Assembly: GCA_017983635.1 (NCBI GenBank)
Contig: JAGOBA010000004.1
Location: 310,001 to 374,000, forward strand
Direction of reading: 5' to 3'
Length of the DNA: 64,000 nt
DNA from: Alphaproteobacteria bacterium
Lineage (GTDB): Bacteria > Pseudomonadota > Alphaproteobacteria > Micropepsales > Micropepsaceae
Made by a program: the position numbers and the translations under genes. The notes below the pieces were generated by a model. It saw only the letters and a list, made by a program, of their open reading frames with translations, made no database searches and had not been told where the DNA came from. Positions 7,459 through 20,839 of the stretch are shown here, piece after piece (the stretch's first letter is position 1; each line of letters opens with the position of its first letter).

Positions 7459-7790
7459 CGCAGCTTGAGGCGATGGCGCTGACGTTCGCAATCGAAGCGC
7501 CGGTCGCGGCCGTGCTGGCGTTCTGGTTTGCACGAAAGCCGCTTCTCTGCGCCGGCGCCGCCATCGCTGGTACGACGATCACCCACCCAGTTCTTTGGGC
7601 AGTGTACTATGGCGCTCGCACAGCACTTGGTGCGCTCACCACGCCGATCCTGGAAGGCGTCATCATCGCCGTCGAAACGCTGGGCTATCGCGCCATCGCA
7701 ACGACGCGCTGGGATGAGGCTGCGCTGTTCTCCGTCCTCGCCAACGCTGCGTCCTGGGGGGGCGGCGAACTCATCTACGCAATGACGTGA
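7446..7790 (+). CDS. Small membrane protein downstream of murJ
   Basis: About 114 residues if it starts at the GTG at 7446 (alternatives: TTG 7455, ATG 7473), overlapping the end of murJ by 4 to 13 bp in the first two cases. Three or four hydrophobic segments are visible (ALTFAIEAPVAAVLAFWFA, an AGAAIAGTTITHPVLWAVYY region, a GVIIAVETLGYRAI region and the tail SVLANAASWGGGELIYAM), so it is an inner-membrane protein. I do not recognise the family. The overlap with murJ suggests co-translation. The 3' end overlaps the convergent membrane-protein gene by 20 bp. Confidence 0.65.
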   Translation: MEALTQLEAMALTFAIEAPVAAVLAFWFARKPLLCAGAAIAGTTITHPVLWAVYYGARTALGALTTPILEGVIIAVETLGYRAIATTRWDEAALFSVLANAASWGGGELIYAMT

Positions 7791-8748
7791 AGCCTTGGCC
7801 CACGGCCATGAGAAGGATTGGCAGTTCGATCCACGCATGGATCGCCGCCGCCACGCTGTAGCCCGCCCGCGCATCGGTATAGGCGACCGCGTAGATCCCA
7901 AACGCCACCGCCGAAATCGCCGCCACTGTGCCTGCGAACACATGCCAGCTCGGCCACGGCACGATCGTCTCGTGCCGCTCGCCGTTCTTCGCCTTTAGAA
8001 GTTGCGGCAGCAATACGATCACGGCGACATAGTGCATCGACTGCGCCACAACCGCCGCCGAGAACAGGTGCATGTCCGTGAACCCCGGCGGCAGGAAGGA
8101 GAGCAGGGGCTTATCGCCCGCGCCGAACATCGAGAGCGATTGCGTCGCCTCGACGTGGAACAACAATGCGCCCATCTGATGAAACACACCCGTCGCGACC
8201 AGCGCCGGCAACACGAAGAACGGCACACTCAGCAACAGCATCCACCGCCGCCGCTCCTCACCCTCCGTGGTCTCGGCGACAAAGGCCAACGGCGTCAGAT
8301 TGTGCACCCACGCCCAAACGACGAAGGTCAAGATCGGCTGATAGATCACGCCCAGCGCAAACACACACCCGATCGCCGCACCGAGGAGCCGTTTCTCGCG
8401 CATGAACGCCGCCGCGGCGAACGCCAGCAACGCGCCCAACGAAAACTCGTACCAAATGAACAGGTCACCCATCAGCCAGTGCAAGCCGTTCGCGATCCGC
8501 CCGGCCGCAATCAGCGCGACCAGCCCGCCGATAATCGCCAGCGCATGCCGCGGCGTGCGGGCGCTGAACCGCTCATCGACATAGCGCAGCTCGTAAAGAA
8601 CGTGCGGCAAACCGAATGCACTGATCATGAGAACGAACGCTGCGATCGGCGCGATCACCACGGAAACGACGGCGATCACGGAGACGCCCGCCCAAATCAG
8701 CGCTAGCCGTCTTGTGTTGGCGTCGAGCGCCCCAAAGGTCAGATTCAT
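7771..8748 (-). CDS. Polytopic membrane protein with intramembrane histidines
   Basis: About 325 residues from the ATG at 8748 (an ATG four codons earlier is also possible). Seven to nine hydrophobic segments are separated by short loops. Several histidines sit at membrane edges in motif-like settings: FGLPHVLYELRYVDERF, NGLHWLMGDLF, QSMHYVAVIVLLP and IHAWIELPILLM. This spacing recalls membrane iron oxygenases such as the Brp/Blh beta-carotene dioxygenases, but I cannot align it with confidence and give no symbol. It is transcribed away from the 8.8-9.2 kb non-coding region and converges on the murJ operon. Confidence 0.75.
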   Translation of the reverse strand: MNLTFGALDANTRRLALIWAGVSVIAVVSVVIAPIAAFVLMISAFGLPHVLYELRYVDERFSARTPRHALAIIGGLVALIAAGRIANGLHWLMGDLFIWYEFSLGALLAFAAAAFMREKRLLGAAIGCVFALGVIYQPILTFVVWAWVHNLTPLAFVAETTEGEERRRWMLLLSVPFFVLPALVATGVFHQMGALLFHVEATQSLSMFGAGDKPLLSFLPPGFTDMHLFSAAVVAQSMHYVAVIVLLPQLLKAKNGERHETIVPWPSWHVFAGTVAAISAVAFGIYAVAYTDARAGYSVAAAIHAWIELPILLMAVGQGFTSLRR

Positions 8749-9039
8749 GTGGAAAAGCATGGGCGCGCTCGGCCCGGGTCGTCAACCCGAAGAACATTTG
8801 AACGTGCGATGCGCGCCCAAGTTGCGTCATTGGAATGCGCCCGCTTTCTCGAGAACATCTGAGAAGCCATGGCAATGATGAGCGTTATCTGGCTGATCTG
8901 GCGTCGAAATGATGATCAGAAATTGAGTTCGATCGCTGCAGACATGCGATCAGTTTAGTCTCGGCCTATCAGCATGACCGGTTGCCATCGGATAGATGAA
9001 CACCCGGTGACACAGTGAAGTTCGCCCTGTGCCCCCTAT
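8749..9039. other. Non-coding stretch, upstream half of the 8.75-9.27 kb gap
   Basis: About 290 bp between the start of the membrane-protein gene (minus strand) and the putative small RNA. I see no credible reading frame, terminator or strong promoter. It must contain the promoter of the minus-strand gene at 8748 and probably that of the small RNA. A TTGCCA around 8982 could be a -35 element, but no matching -10 is evident. Confidence 0.4.
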
Positions 9040-9195
9040 TACGCTCCGGTGCGACTGCTAGAGTTGTATGTGCGAGTTGATTCTTTCGCGCCTAGAGACG
9101 GGATGCCCCCCTACCCAAGCGTTCCCGTCGAACCCATCGCCTAGGCGTCGAATGCGGCAGGTGTTCGCCCCCAACGACACCTGCCGCTTTTCTTC
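9040..9195 (+). ncRNA. Putative structured small RNA with C-rich loops and intrinsic terminator
   Basis: No gene fits here, yet the plus strand folds strongly. CGCCTAG (9089-9095) pairs with CTAGGCG (9141-9147), enclosing a second stem GACGGGA (9097-9103) with TCCCGTC (9123-9129). The apical loop of that stem is C-rich (CCCCCCTACCC). A third hairpin follows and is a textbook Rho-independent terminator (9154-9191), whose loop again holds CCCCC. C-rich loops that pair with Shine-Dalgarno sequences are typical of alphaproteobacterial trans-acting small RNAs (for example GsrN of Caulobacter). The 5' end is a guess, since no promoter is obvious. The terminator has no upstream protein gene on its strand to serve. 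Confidence 0.55.
9154..9191 (+). terminator. Rho-independent terminator of the putative small RNA
   Basis: GCGGCAGGTGT (9154-9164) pairs perfectly over 11 bp with ACACCTGCCGC (9177-9187) around a 12-nt loop and is followed by a T-rich tail (TTTTCTTCTTT). On the opposite strand there is no T-tract, so it acts on plus-strand transcripts. Confidence 0.85.
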
Positions 9196-9204
9196 TTTCG
9201 TCAC

Positions 9205-9238
9205 CAAAAACAAAAGCGGCGGGTCGTTAACCCGCCGC
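9205..9238 (-). terminator. Rho-independent terminator of the outer-membrane protein / TonB receptor operon
   Basis: Read on the minus strand, GCGGCGGG and CCCGCCGC (9216-9238) form an 8-bp perfect stem with a 7-nt loop, followed by TTTTGTTTTT. It lies 27 bp past the stop of the outer-membrane protein gene, so it ends that operon. It faces the small-RNA terminator 24 bp away. Confidence 0.88.
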
Positions 9239-9265
9239 CAGATAAAACTCGTGGCCTCCGATGCG

Positions 9266-10186
9266 CTATTCCAATTTGAACGTGATGCCCGCAGTGACGG
9301 ATTTATGGGTTACGTCATGGTCGAAGGATTTCTTGCCGCCGGCGAGAAGCGGGACATCCACTTCAACGGATCCACCGTCTAAGTATCGATAACCGACGTT
9401 GATTGATGTTGTTGCGTCAATCGAGAGGTTGACGCCTGCGCCCAATTGCCAAGCGAAATTTCCGTCGTCGCCTTTGAACATGTTGGACGCCTCGACGACG
9501 GATTGTGCGTATCCAACGCCGCCGCCGACATACGGTTTGATCCAGGATTCCATGTCGAAGTCGTACCAAACATTCGCCATCAAGGCGAACGTTCGAACGG
9601 CACCATCGTTCTGTTCGTTGCGGGTGGAGTTGAAGGTCGCAGCGAACGGAACCTGAGTGGTTCCGGTGATGAACTGAGGAAGCCCGCCGAAAAACGGAAA
9701 CGGGGATCCAATCAGCGGCGTCACGACACCCTGCGGATAGAATACCAGGTTACTCGTCGTAGACGGGAGTGTCGCGGTATCAGTGTCGACATCTGTCGCG
9801 TTGGCGCGTAGATGAGCGTTTCGCAAGGTGTTATTGCGGAAGGACGCTTCAAGCTCCCCCCTCAAACCAGGCAGGATCGCCGACAGGTCCTTGCCGACCG
9901 CAACTCCAACCACAAAGCCAGTCTCGGCTTTGGTCTTGTCGAGCGTGAAGGCGGTGTTGGCCGTGAAGCTAAAGTGCAGGATATCGGTAGCGCCAAAGTA
10001 GCCCGCAACTGTTGTCGAGAGGGCGTTATTGAGGACGCCACCTCCACCGGTCAGACCTCGTAGGTCGTTTGTATTGTTGGCTCCGCCATGGAACGAAAGG
10101 TAGTAGCCAGCGGCTTCGGCCGAGCCTGCGCCCGCTAGGACTGCCAACACCGCTGCAGAGTTCAAAAGCGCAAATTTCTTAGACAT
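9266..10186 (-). CDS. Outer-membrane beta-barrel protein
   Basis: About 306 residues from the ATG at 10186, preceded by GGGGG. It has a clear signal peptide (KKFALLNSAAVLAVLAGAGSAEA, cut near AEA-AGYY). The mature part alternates polar and hydrophobic residues with surface-loop-like insertions and ends in the strands GYRYLDGGSVEVDVPLL and SVTAGITFKLE, like OmpA/OmpW/Omp25-type porins. The segment MANVWYDFDMESWIKPYVGGGVGYA is typical of that superfamily. The last residue is Glu, not the usual terminal aromatic. The gene begins 25 bp after the TonB-dependent receptor stop on the same strand, so the two are likely one operon for outer-membrane uptake. A terminator follows. Confidence 0.85.
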   Translation of the reverse strand: MSKKFALLNSAAVLAVLAGAGSAEAAGYYLSFHGGANNTNDLRGLTGGGGVLNNALSTTVAGYFGATDILHFSFTANTAFTLDKTKAETGFVVGVAVGKDLSAILPGLRGELEASFRNNTLRNAHLRANATDVDTDTATLPSTTSNLVFYPQGVVTPLIGSPFPFFGGLPQFITGTTQVPFAATFNSTRNEQNDGAVRTFALMANVWYDFDMESWIKPYVGGGVGYAQSVVEASNMFKGDDGNFAWQLGAGVNLSIDATTSINVGYRYLDGGSVEVDVPLLAGGKKSFDHDVTHKSVTAGITFKLE

Positions 10187-10211
10187 GTGAAAACCCCCTG
10201 ATCCCTGCAAC

Positions 10212-19012: not shown

Positions 19013-20839
19013 ATGCTGTCCCAGAAATTGCTGTCGGCCGCTGCCGCCATCGCCCTTTCGTTGCCGTTGACCGGCTGCCTCGACGATGTCGCGGTGCCCG
19101 CCGATCAGGTCGCCAAAGAGGCGACCCCAAGTGCCTCAAAGGCGCTGCAACAGATATTCGCCGACAGCGACGAAGCGTCCCTGAAGCTGAGCCCGATCGG
19201 CGCGCTGTTCCGCGGCGATCAGCGTTACGCGGGGGAGTTCGGCGACTACATCACCGACGCCTATATCGATCAGTCCCGGCGCGACGCGGAAGCCGATCTT
19301 AGGCGGTTGCGCGAGATCGACCGGAAAACGCTCTCGCCGCAGGATCAACTTGCCTACGACGTGTTCGAGTATCAGACGAAGCAGGCGCTTGAAGGCCTTT
19401 CGCCGGCGTTGGTGGTGCTGAGCGCCCCGCGACCGCTGAATCACCTGAACGGTTTGCATGTGCAGTATCCCGACATCAGTTCCGGTAAATCCGCGGCTCG
19501 CTTCCAAACCGTCGAGGATTACGACAACGGTCTGAAGCGCATGACGGGCTTTGTGACCTATATCGATCGCGCCATCGGCCGCATGCGCGAAGGGCTGAAG
19601 TCGGGCGTCGTCGAGTCGAAACTGACGATGCGCCTGATGCTACCCCAGCTCGACGATCTGATCTCGCAGGGTGTCGAGAAGAGTCCGTTTTACCAACCGA
19701 TCAGGGATATTCCAGCGACGTTCGCCGAGGCGGACAAGAAGCGCCTCGCCGCTGCATACCGTGCGATGCTGAGCGATCAGATCATCCCGTCTTACGAACG
19801 CCTGCGCACCTTCGTGAAGAAGGAATATCTGCCCGCTGCGCGGGCGGGCGTCGGTTTGGGCGCGATGAAAGGTGGCGACAAGCTCTACGCCTATTTGGTC
19901 GAGGCCAATACGACGACGAAGCTGACTGCCGACGAGATACACAATCTTGGCCTCAGCGAAGTTGCGCGGATCAAGGGCGAGATGGATGAGGTTCGCCGCA
20001 CCGTCGGATTCAAAGGATCGTTGCACGCGTTCTTCTCGCATCTGCGCACCGCCAAGCAGTTCGAGCCGAAATCGGAAGAAGACCTGCAAGCGCGTTATGC
20101 CGACATTGCCAAGCGGATCGAGGCGGCCATTCCGGGCGCCTTTTCGCTGACGCCCAAGACCAAGATCGAGCTTCGCCCCGTGCCGGACTATCTCGAGCAA
20201 AGCCAGGCGGGCGGCTACTATAACCCCGGAACGCCCGACGGCTCGCGCGCCGGCGTCTTCTACTTCAACAAGTACGATCTGCCGTCGCGCAAAACCTGGG
20301 GTATGGAGACGCTCTATCTGCACGAAGCTGAGCCTGGCCATCACTTCCAAATCAGCCTGGCGCAGGAGAACGAAGGTCTGCCGAAGTTCATGCGCTTCGG
20401 TGGTAACACCGCCTATGTCGAGGGCTGGGCGCTCTATGCCGAATGGCTCGGGCGTGGGCTGGGGATGTACAAGGACCCGTACCAGAAGTTCGGTCATCTC
20501 AACGACGAACAGCTGCGCGCGATGCGGCTTGTTGTCGACACCGGCTTGCACGCGAACGGCTGGAGCCGCGAGAAGGCGATCAATTACATGCTCGACAACT
20601 CGGCGCTCAGCCGGACCGAAACCGTGCAAGAGGTCGACCGCTATATTGCCAACCCCGGCCAAGCGTTGGGTTACAAGGTCGGCCAGCTCACAATCAAGCG
20701 CCTGCGCGCGGAGGCCGAAAAGGCCATGGGCCAACGGTTCGACTTGAAAGCGTTCCACGCCCAAATCCTCGACACCGGCGCCCTGCCGATGGACATCCTG
20801 GAGGCCAAGATCAAGGCCTGGATGGCGACGTCAAAGTAG
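19013..20839 (+). CDS. DUF885 family lipoprotein, putative zinc metallopeptidase
   Basis: A 608-residue lipoprotein: the leader KLLSAAAAIALSLPLTGC ends in a lipobox (L-T-G-C), so it should be anchored in the periplasm. The DUF885 signature is complete: YYNPGTPDGSRAG, the zinc-site-like LYLHEAEPGHHFQISLAQ (H-E-x-x-P-G-H-H), and further on YVEGWALYAEWLGRGLGMY and ANGWSREKAINYM. These proteins are thought to be metallopeptidases; their substrates are undefined. It stands alone, divergent from the flavin-dehydrogenase operon, and is followed by the SPFH gene 74 bp later. It is another secreted peptidase near the TonB/S9 locus. Confidence 0.92.
   Translation: MLSQKLLSAAAAIALSLPLTGCLDDVAVPADQVAKEATPSASKALQQIFADSDEASLKLSPIGALFRGDQRYAGEFGDYITDAYIDQSRRDAEADLRRLREIDRKTLSPQDQLAYDVFEYQTKQALEGLSPALVVLSAPRPLNHLNGLHVQYPDISSGKSAARFQTVEDYDNGLKRMTGFVTYIDRAIGRMREGLKSGVVESKLTMRLMLPQLDDLISQGVEKSPFYQPIRDIPATFAEADKKRLAAAYRAMLSDQIIPSYERLRTFVKKEYLPAARAGVGLGAMKGGDKLYAYLVEANTTTKLTADEIHNLGLSEVARIKGEMDEVRRTVGFKGSLHAFFSHLRTAKQFEPKSEEDLQARYADIAKRIEAAIPGAFSLTPKTKIELRPVPDYLEQSQAGGYYNPGTPDGSRAGVFYFNKYDLPSRKTWGMETLYLHEAEPGHHFQISLAQENEGLPKFMRFGGNTAYVEGWALYAEWLGRGLGMYKDPYQKFGHLNDEQLRAMRLVVDTGLHANGWSREKAINYMLDNSALSRTETVQEVDRYIANPGQALGYKVGQLTIKRLRAEAEKAMGQRFDLKAFHAQILDTGALPMDILEAKIKAWMATSK

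Follow-up and report, generated by a model that had tools for sequence, protein, structure and literature searches.

A small RNA locus and its fold

The DNA analysed here, hereafter the window, is a 64,000 nt stretch from a member of the Micropepsaceae (contig JAGOBA010000004.1 of GCA_017983635.1, positions 310,001–374,000 of the forward strand). On its plus strand lies a gene that very probably encodes a genuine bacterial small RNA (sRNA) not described before, located between a divergent gene for a polytopic membrane protein and a convergent gene for an outer-membrane barrel (Table 1). The transcript is predicted to begin at ~9072, about 7 nt past a conserved −10 block, while its putative 3′ end near 9190–9196 is set from the terminator. 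The region from 9040 to 9205 folds at −63.9 kcal/mol, compared with −46.4 ± 3.5 for shuffled sequences (z −4.94), and none of 200 shuffles folded as well.

Table 1 Features of the sRNA locus and its flanks, in window positions.
Feature	Position	Strand	Remarks
-35-side CTATT (putative)	9036-9040	+	weakly conserved: 5/8 homologues, TTTTG-like in the rest
-10 block TGCTAGAGT, candidate extended -10	9056-9064	+	conserved across eight genomes
small RNA gene (very probable), ~125 nt	9072-9196	+	R1 covariance-model matches in eight genus genomes, and alignment
5' leader GATTCT	9079-9084	+	invariant in 8/8; leader mostly single-stranded; unpaired probability 0.36-0.95
stem-loop 1	9085-9152	+	pairs kept in 97.5-97.7% of cells; each helix has one pair with a double compensatory change
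outer stem, 11 pairs, one bulge	9085-9095/9141-9152	+	
inner stem, 10 pairs	9097-9106/9119-9129	+	
apical C-rich loop CCCCCCUACCCAA	9106-9118	+	proposed main seed
internal unpaired 3' strand GAACCCATCGC	9130-9140	+	unpaired probability 0.82-0.97
intrinsic terminator hairpin and U-tail	9154-9196	+	100% of cells paired; four pairs with double changes
terminator loop CCCCCAA	9168-9174	+	invariant, open; proposed second seed
329-aa polytopic membrane-protein gene	7771-8760	-	divergent to the sRNA
outer-membrane barrel gene	9266-10210	-	convergent neighbour in the window

The nested stems, the C-rich apical loop (the loop proper, at 9107–9118, reads CCCCCUACCCAA) and the terminator loop all lie where the original prediction had placed them. 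That prediction had also described an 11-bp terminator with a T-tail, and a terminator is present, albeit with a stem of 13 pairs (9154–9167/9175–9187) and an interrupted tail (TTTTCTTCTTTC, the U-tail beginning at 9188). A simple terminator scan did not flag this terminator. Among the homologues described below, the tail is T-rich in six of seven and poor in L005.

Phylogenetic range

In a nucleotide search of 120 related genomes, seven besides the window’s own, all of the same genus, matched strongly. From the eight sequences we built a covariance model, R1, which scored 135–152 bits in 8 of the 11 genus genomes; each of the eight, the window’s own genome included, carries one copy. The three genus genomes in which no match was found have completeness values of 64, 92 and 82%, so that the missing sRNA may reflect either assembly gaps or real loss. 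R1 found nothing comparable in score in the remaining 88 of the 96 family genomes and no convincing match among 385 genomes sampled across the class. An exact-pattern scan of ~85,000 species genomes recovered the loop region from metagenome-assembled Alphaproteobacteria only, in seven contigs whose lengths correspond to those of loci already identified. Neither a plasmid collection nor viral contigs contained a match. The weak R1 hits outside the genus that were inspected proved to be terminators or chance and were rejected: L039 is only the terminator of a gene, its loop reading CCCCAAC, and L040–L043 and L051 have no stem-loop. The blast matches L009, L010 and L012 fall elsewhere, in sequence that lacks the RNA.

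Rfam models gave no match to the locus at their gathering scores and, with E up to 10, chance-level matches only on or beside it. The identity with 6S RNA was likewise discarded, as the genome’s own 6S lies at C3:13667-13826 (53.7 bits) and the sRNA locus has no RF00013 match. The sole Rfam match in the window is a c-di-GMP-I-GGC riboswitch (RF03167, 39426–39516, plus strand, 62.9 bits). As judged from these searches, the sRNA is a family restricted to one genus of uncultured alphaproteobacteria and absent from Rfam.

Covarying stems and invariant loops

Over the 34 pairs in the alignment of the eight sequences, 98.5% of the cells hold standard pairs, all three helices are kept, and six pairs show double compensatory changes. 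The observed covariation was reached by none of 500 shuffles, a lenient control given that it involves only eight related sequences, two of which (L007 and L008) carry most of the changes; when the partner strand was slid by 1–3 columns, pairing fell to 34–50% and the covariation was lost. Since the fold is conserved with covariation in eight genomes, it is more than a product of chance. Covariation in relatives had been set beforehand as the test of the original prediction, and both stems are indeed kept by compensatory change. Columns 98/111 and similar pairs pass through U-A, U-G and C-G, which favours the plus strand as the RNA because such G-U intermediates pair only if it is this strand that is transcribed.

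The apical loop has no variable column among its 12 (L005 has one extra C just before it), the terminator loop has none among 7 and the internal strand 1 among 12; in the stems 17 of 68 paired positions vary, and the DNA upstream varies too. As the overall contrast between paired and unpaired positions is not significant (Fisher p 0.21), our claim of protection concerns the two loops specifically. Both are predicted to be open in all eight sequences, with unpaired probabilities of 0.92–1.0 (apical loop) and 0.98–1.0 (terminator loop).

Promoter and neighbouring genes

The −10 block sits inside otherwise unconserved DNA, with 7 of its 11 columns invariant across the eight genomes (64%) versus 13% upstream and 8% in the spacer between −10 and +1. 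We take this block to resemble the Caulobacter-type GCTANA −10; it is consistent with an extended −10 element accompanied by a weak −35 side. No plus-strand gene needs the sRNA terminator, as both flanking genes (7771–8760 and 9266–10210) are on the minus strand, a point that had been made in the original prediction and that holds. With its conserved −10 block, its terminator and no gene on the same strand, the sRNA would form its own transcription unit, and the expectation of a new small RNA is thereby borne out by a stand-alone plus-strand gene that has no match in Rfam.

The divergent membrane-protein gene adjoins the sRNA in all eight genomes (identity 54–73%), at a distance of about 200–350 bp, while the convergent flank differs between genomes, being the outer-membrane barrel gene in the window and other genes elsewhere. 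The sRNA is thus tied to one neighbour, and there is no conserved convergent gene of which it could be the antisense RNA or the leader. The gene at 9266–10210 has an intrinsic terminator of its own on the minus strand (9205–9239), which stands back to back with that of the sRNA. The 329-aa membrane protein matched no family in Pfam or NCBIfam, and its AlphaFold model has a mean pLDDT of 57.7. It shares many invariant residues with its orthologues (L054–L060), several histidines among them, in the motifs GLPHVL-ELRY-DERF, WAW-HNLTP, MHY and AAIHAW-ELP. The Bac_rhodopsin model gave no match in the genus but none in the controls either, so that its negative is uninformative.

Candidate mRNA targets

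The original prediction had proposed that targets could be predicted from the C-rich loops, and this did yield leads, none of them conserved genus-wide. GGGTAGGGG precedes an ATG 30 times in the 11 genus genomes versus 9 times for the reversed pattern, although start sites would be rich in G in any case. Two orthologue pairs have this motif in common. One is a TolC-like gene for outer-membrane efflux, whose start sites carry 11–12 nt complementary to the apical loop in two genomes (G001 and G002); the other is FliJ, with 9-nt loop complements at its start sites in two others (G006 and G009) and variation among the remaining FliJ orthologues. The TolC-like start sites (L122–L127, L133) have an unusual G-run, which reads GGGTAGGGGG in two species and TTGGGGGAC in five; the latter complements the terminator loop and is also present in two genomes in which the sRNA was not detected. 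Apart from the sRNA gene itself, the window’s own genome has a single CTTGGGTAGGG, ~10–20 nt before the ATG of a 436-aa unknown gene (C10:255090). This 12-nt site is confined to one species, there being no 11-mer match before the orthologues in other genus genomes. The TolC-like, FliJ and C10:255090 sites are thus to be read as target leads only.

A duplex-energy search over 759 crudely called genes (0.85 Mb) gave 48 start sites versus 28 coding sites with duplexes at −16 or better, a difference no larger than permuted loops may show. For the apical loop, pairing to start regions (20 versus 0 ± 13 for permuted loops) was not clearly above that control, and in the same 759 genes neither the internal ACCCAUCG strand nor the terminator loop nor the 5′ leader gave a start-site excess. 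A hydrophobic N-terminus is more frequent among genes that have GGGG close to their start (50 of 99 versus 199 of 637, p = 2e-4), so that envelope genes are what a C-rich seed would be prone to encounter. No target set conserved across the genus was found, and the earlier suggestion that the RNA probably silences several messages is not supported.

Comparison with known sRNAs

Pairing of C-rich single-stranded loops with G-rich mRNA sites is a principle also used by RsaE and LhrC of Gram-positive bacteria, although their sequences and hosts are unrelated and their motifs are usually shorter and of the UCCC type. Closer at hand is GsrN, which likewise has a 5′ stem-loop with six tandem C in an open, most conserved loop, a second exposed region in its 3′ part and a 3′ terminator (PMC5869019). 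GsrN differs in being activated by sigma-T (EcfG) and in usually lying near ecfG/nepR/phyR (gsrN of C. crescentus is itself distal to these genes; PMC5869019), while the sRNA in the window has no such promoter. The sigma-EcfG pattern GGAAC-N15-18-CGTT has a single match in the window, at 20733, and none at the sRNA. A NepR model found nothing in the window’s own genome (G000, 4.59 Mb, 100% estimated completeness) though it did match Caulobacter vibrioides; so short a model may miss the gene. GsrN homologues recognizable by sequence have been described only in Caulobacteraceae, and the class-wide R1 search returned no relative; homology with GsrN is not supported, and we set the two side by side by description.

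PmaR of Agrobacterium is also genus-restricted and has an accessible C-rich loop, but it is spoon-like, with one long stem, and comes from another family (PMC6234868). The alpha-R8/SisA-D RNAs, which are Hfq-bound, share the alphaproteobacterial host range, a conserved pyrimidine-rich core and a terminator; their core (UUUCCUCCCU), however, is of the anti-Shine-Dalgarno type and lies in a linear single-stranded stretch, and they occur in several copies per genome (PMC12559287), whereas the sRNA in the window has one copy and no Rfam match. By analogy, GsrN and PmaR would be the closest working models. The original prediction had named GsrN among regulators that pair with Shine-Dalgarno regions and had inferred probable silencing for the sRNA, but GsrN activates katG, by pairing with the 5′ end of the katG leader (PMC5869019). 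PmaR, too, is mostly an activator, and most of its pairing takes place at a distance from ribosome-binding sites (PMC6234868), so that neither Shine-Dalgarno pairing nor silencing is the lesson of these precedents. The sRNA described here is likely a new family of a kind already known, that of the trans-acting C-rich-loop sRNAs, which is not a homology family.

Proposed mechanism and alternatives

We consider it probable that the locus encodes a stand-alone, genus-specific sRNA that acts in trans through its C-rich loops on G-rich stretches of mRNA. Transcription of the plus strand would start near 9072 from the conserved −10 promoter and would end near 9190–9196 at the RNA’s own intrinsic terminator. 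The invariant, open apical loop would then pair with G-rich stretches of several mRNAs, probably assisted by the open C-rich loop of the terminator. The paired sites may often lie near ribosome-binding sites and, probably often too, in envelope-protein genes; pairing would alter the translation or stability of the target mRNAs. Invariant, open C-rich loops on covarying stems have the look expected of an mRNA-pairing sRNA with loop seeds, which makes this the best mechanism suggested by the sequences; the trans action that had been predicted is plausible given that the loops are invariant and open in all homologues, and is itself inferred. No Hfq gene was found in the part of the genome searched, and a U-tail is present in most homologues. 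A bolder version, which we regard as doubtful, would make the RNA a lineage-specific master regulator of the envelope, whose two invariant C-rich seeds pick outer-membrane and secretion genes by their G-rich start sites and whose targets turn over between species while the seeds stay frozen.

The invariance of both C-rich loops, and likewise of the internal ACCCAUCG strand, would also be explained if the RNA mainly bound or titrated a protein (a binder of C-rich RNA or a regulator of the CsrA/RsmA type) with the loops as recognition sites, and the target searches, which found no conserved mRNA target, agree with such a role. CsrA/RsmA binding needs GGA, and titrating RNAs show several GGA in hairpin loops; the unpaired loops here have none, and where alphaproteobacterial RNAs with loops of this sort are known, their pairing partners are mRNAs, so we hold protein binding to be unlikely. 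A sponge, whose C-rich loops would capture other small RNAs by their G-rich parts, is very unlikely. Loop invariance could reflect one fixed partner, and sponging between sRNAs is documented in Caulobacter, where CrfA sponges SisA-D, albeit with the opposite polarity (PMC12559287); yet a G-rich partner sRNA is not known here, and the only CTTGGGTAGGG elsewhere in the genome precedes a coding start.

The constant presence of the divergent membrane-protein gene is what would be expected of a cis element, be it a leader or attenuator or an antisense RNA to either neighbour. Against this, there is no plus-strand gene downstream, the transcript would lie ~300 bp from the divergent gene and stop before the convergent gene’s own minus-strand terminator, and the convergent neighbour varies between genomes, all of which makes such an element highly improbable. 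An untranscribed DNA structure or mobile-element relic is more improbable again, in view of the single copy per genome, the conserved −10 block and terminator, and the compensatory changes whose G-U intermediates pair only in RNA. Two reading frames are open in the window, one of 13 codons (ATG CCC CCC TAC ... TAG, 9104–9144 region) and one of 104 codons (9068–9382), but a gene for a tiny protein is scarcely credible: the frame is shifted by extra bases in L004 and L005, L007 and L008 lack the stop and have changes that alter amino acids yet preserve base pairs, and the ATG lies inside a stem with no Shine-Dalgarno before it. The 13-codon frame was rejected as coding on the grounds of these losses.

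Significance

The locus adds a well-supported sRNA family to a genus that is represented here by metagenome-assembled genomes alone. Going by the precedents of GsrN and PmaR, activation is as open to an RNA of this kind as silencing. Its frozen loop seeds on covarying stems provide a clean comparative case for the origin of an sRNA within a single genus, in which the family may keep a fixed seed while its targets change.
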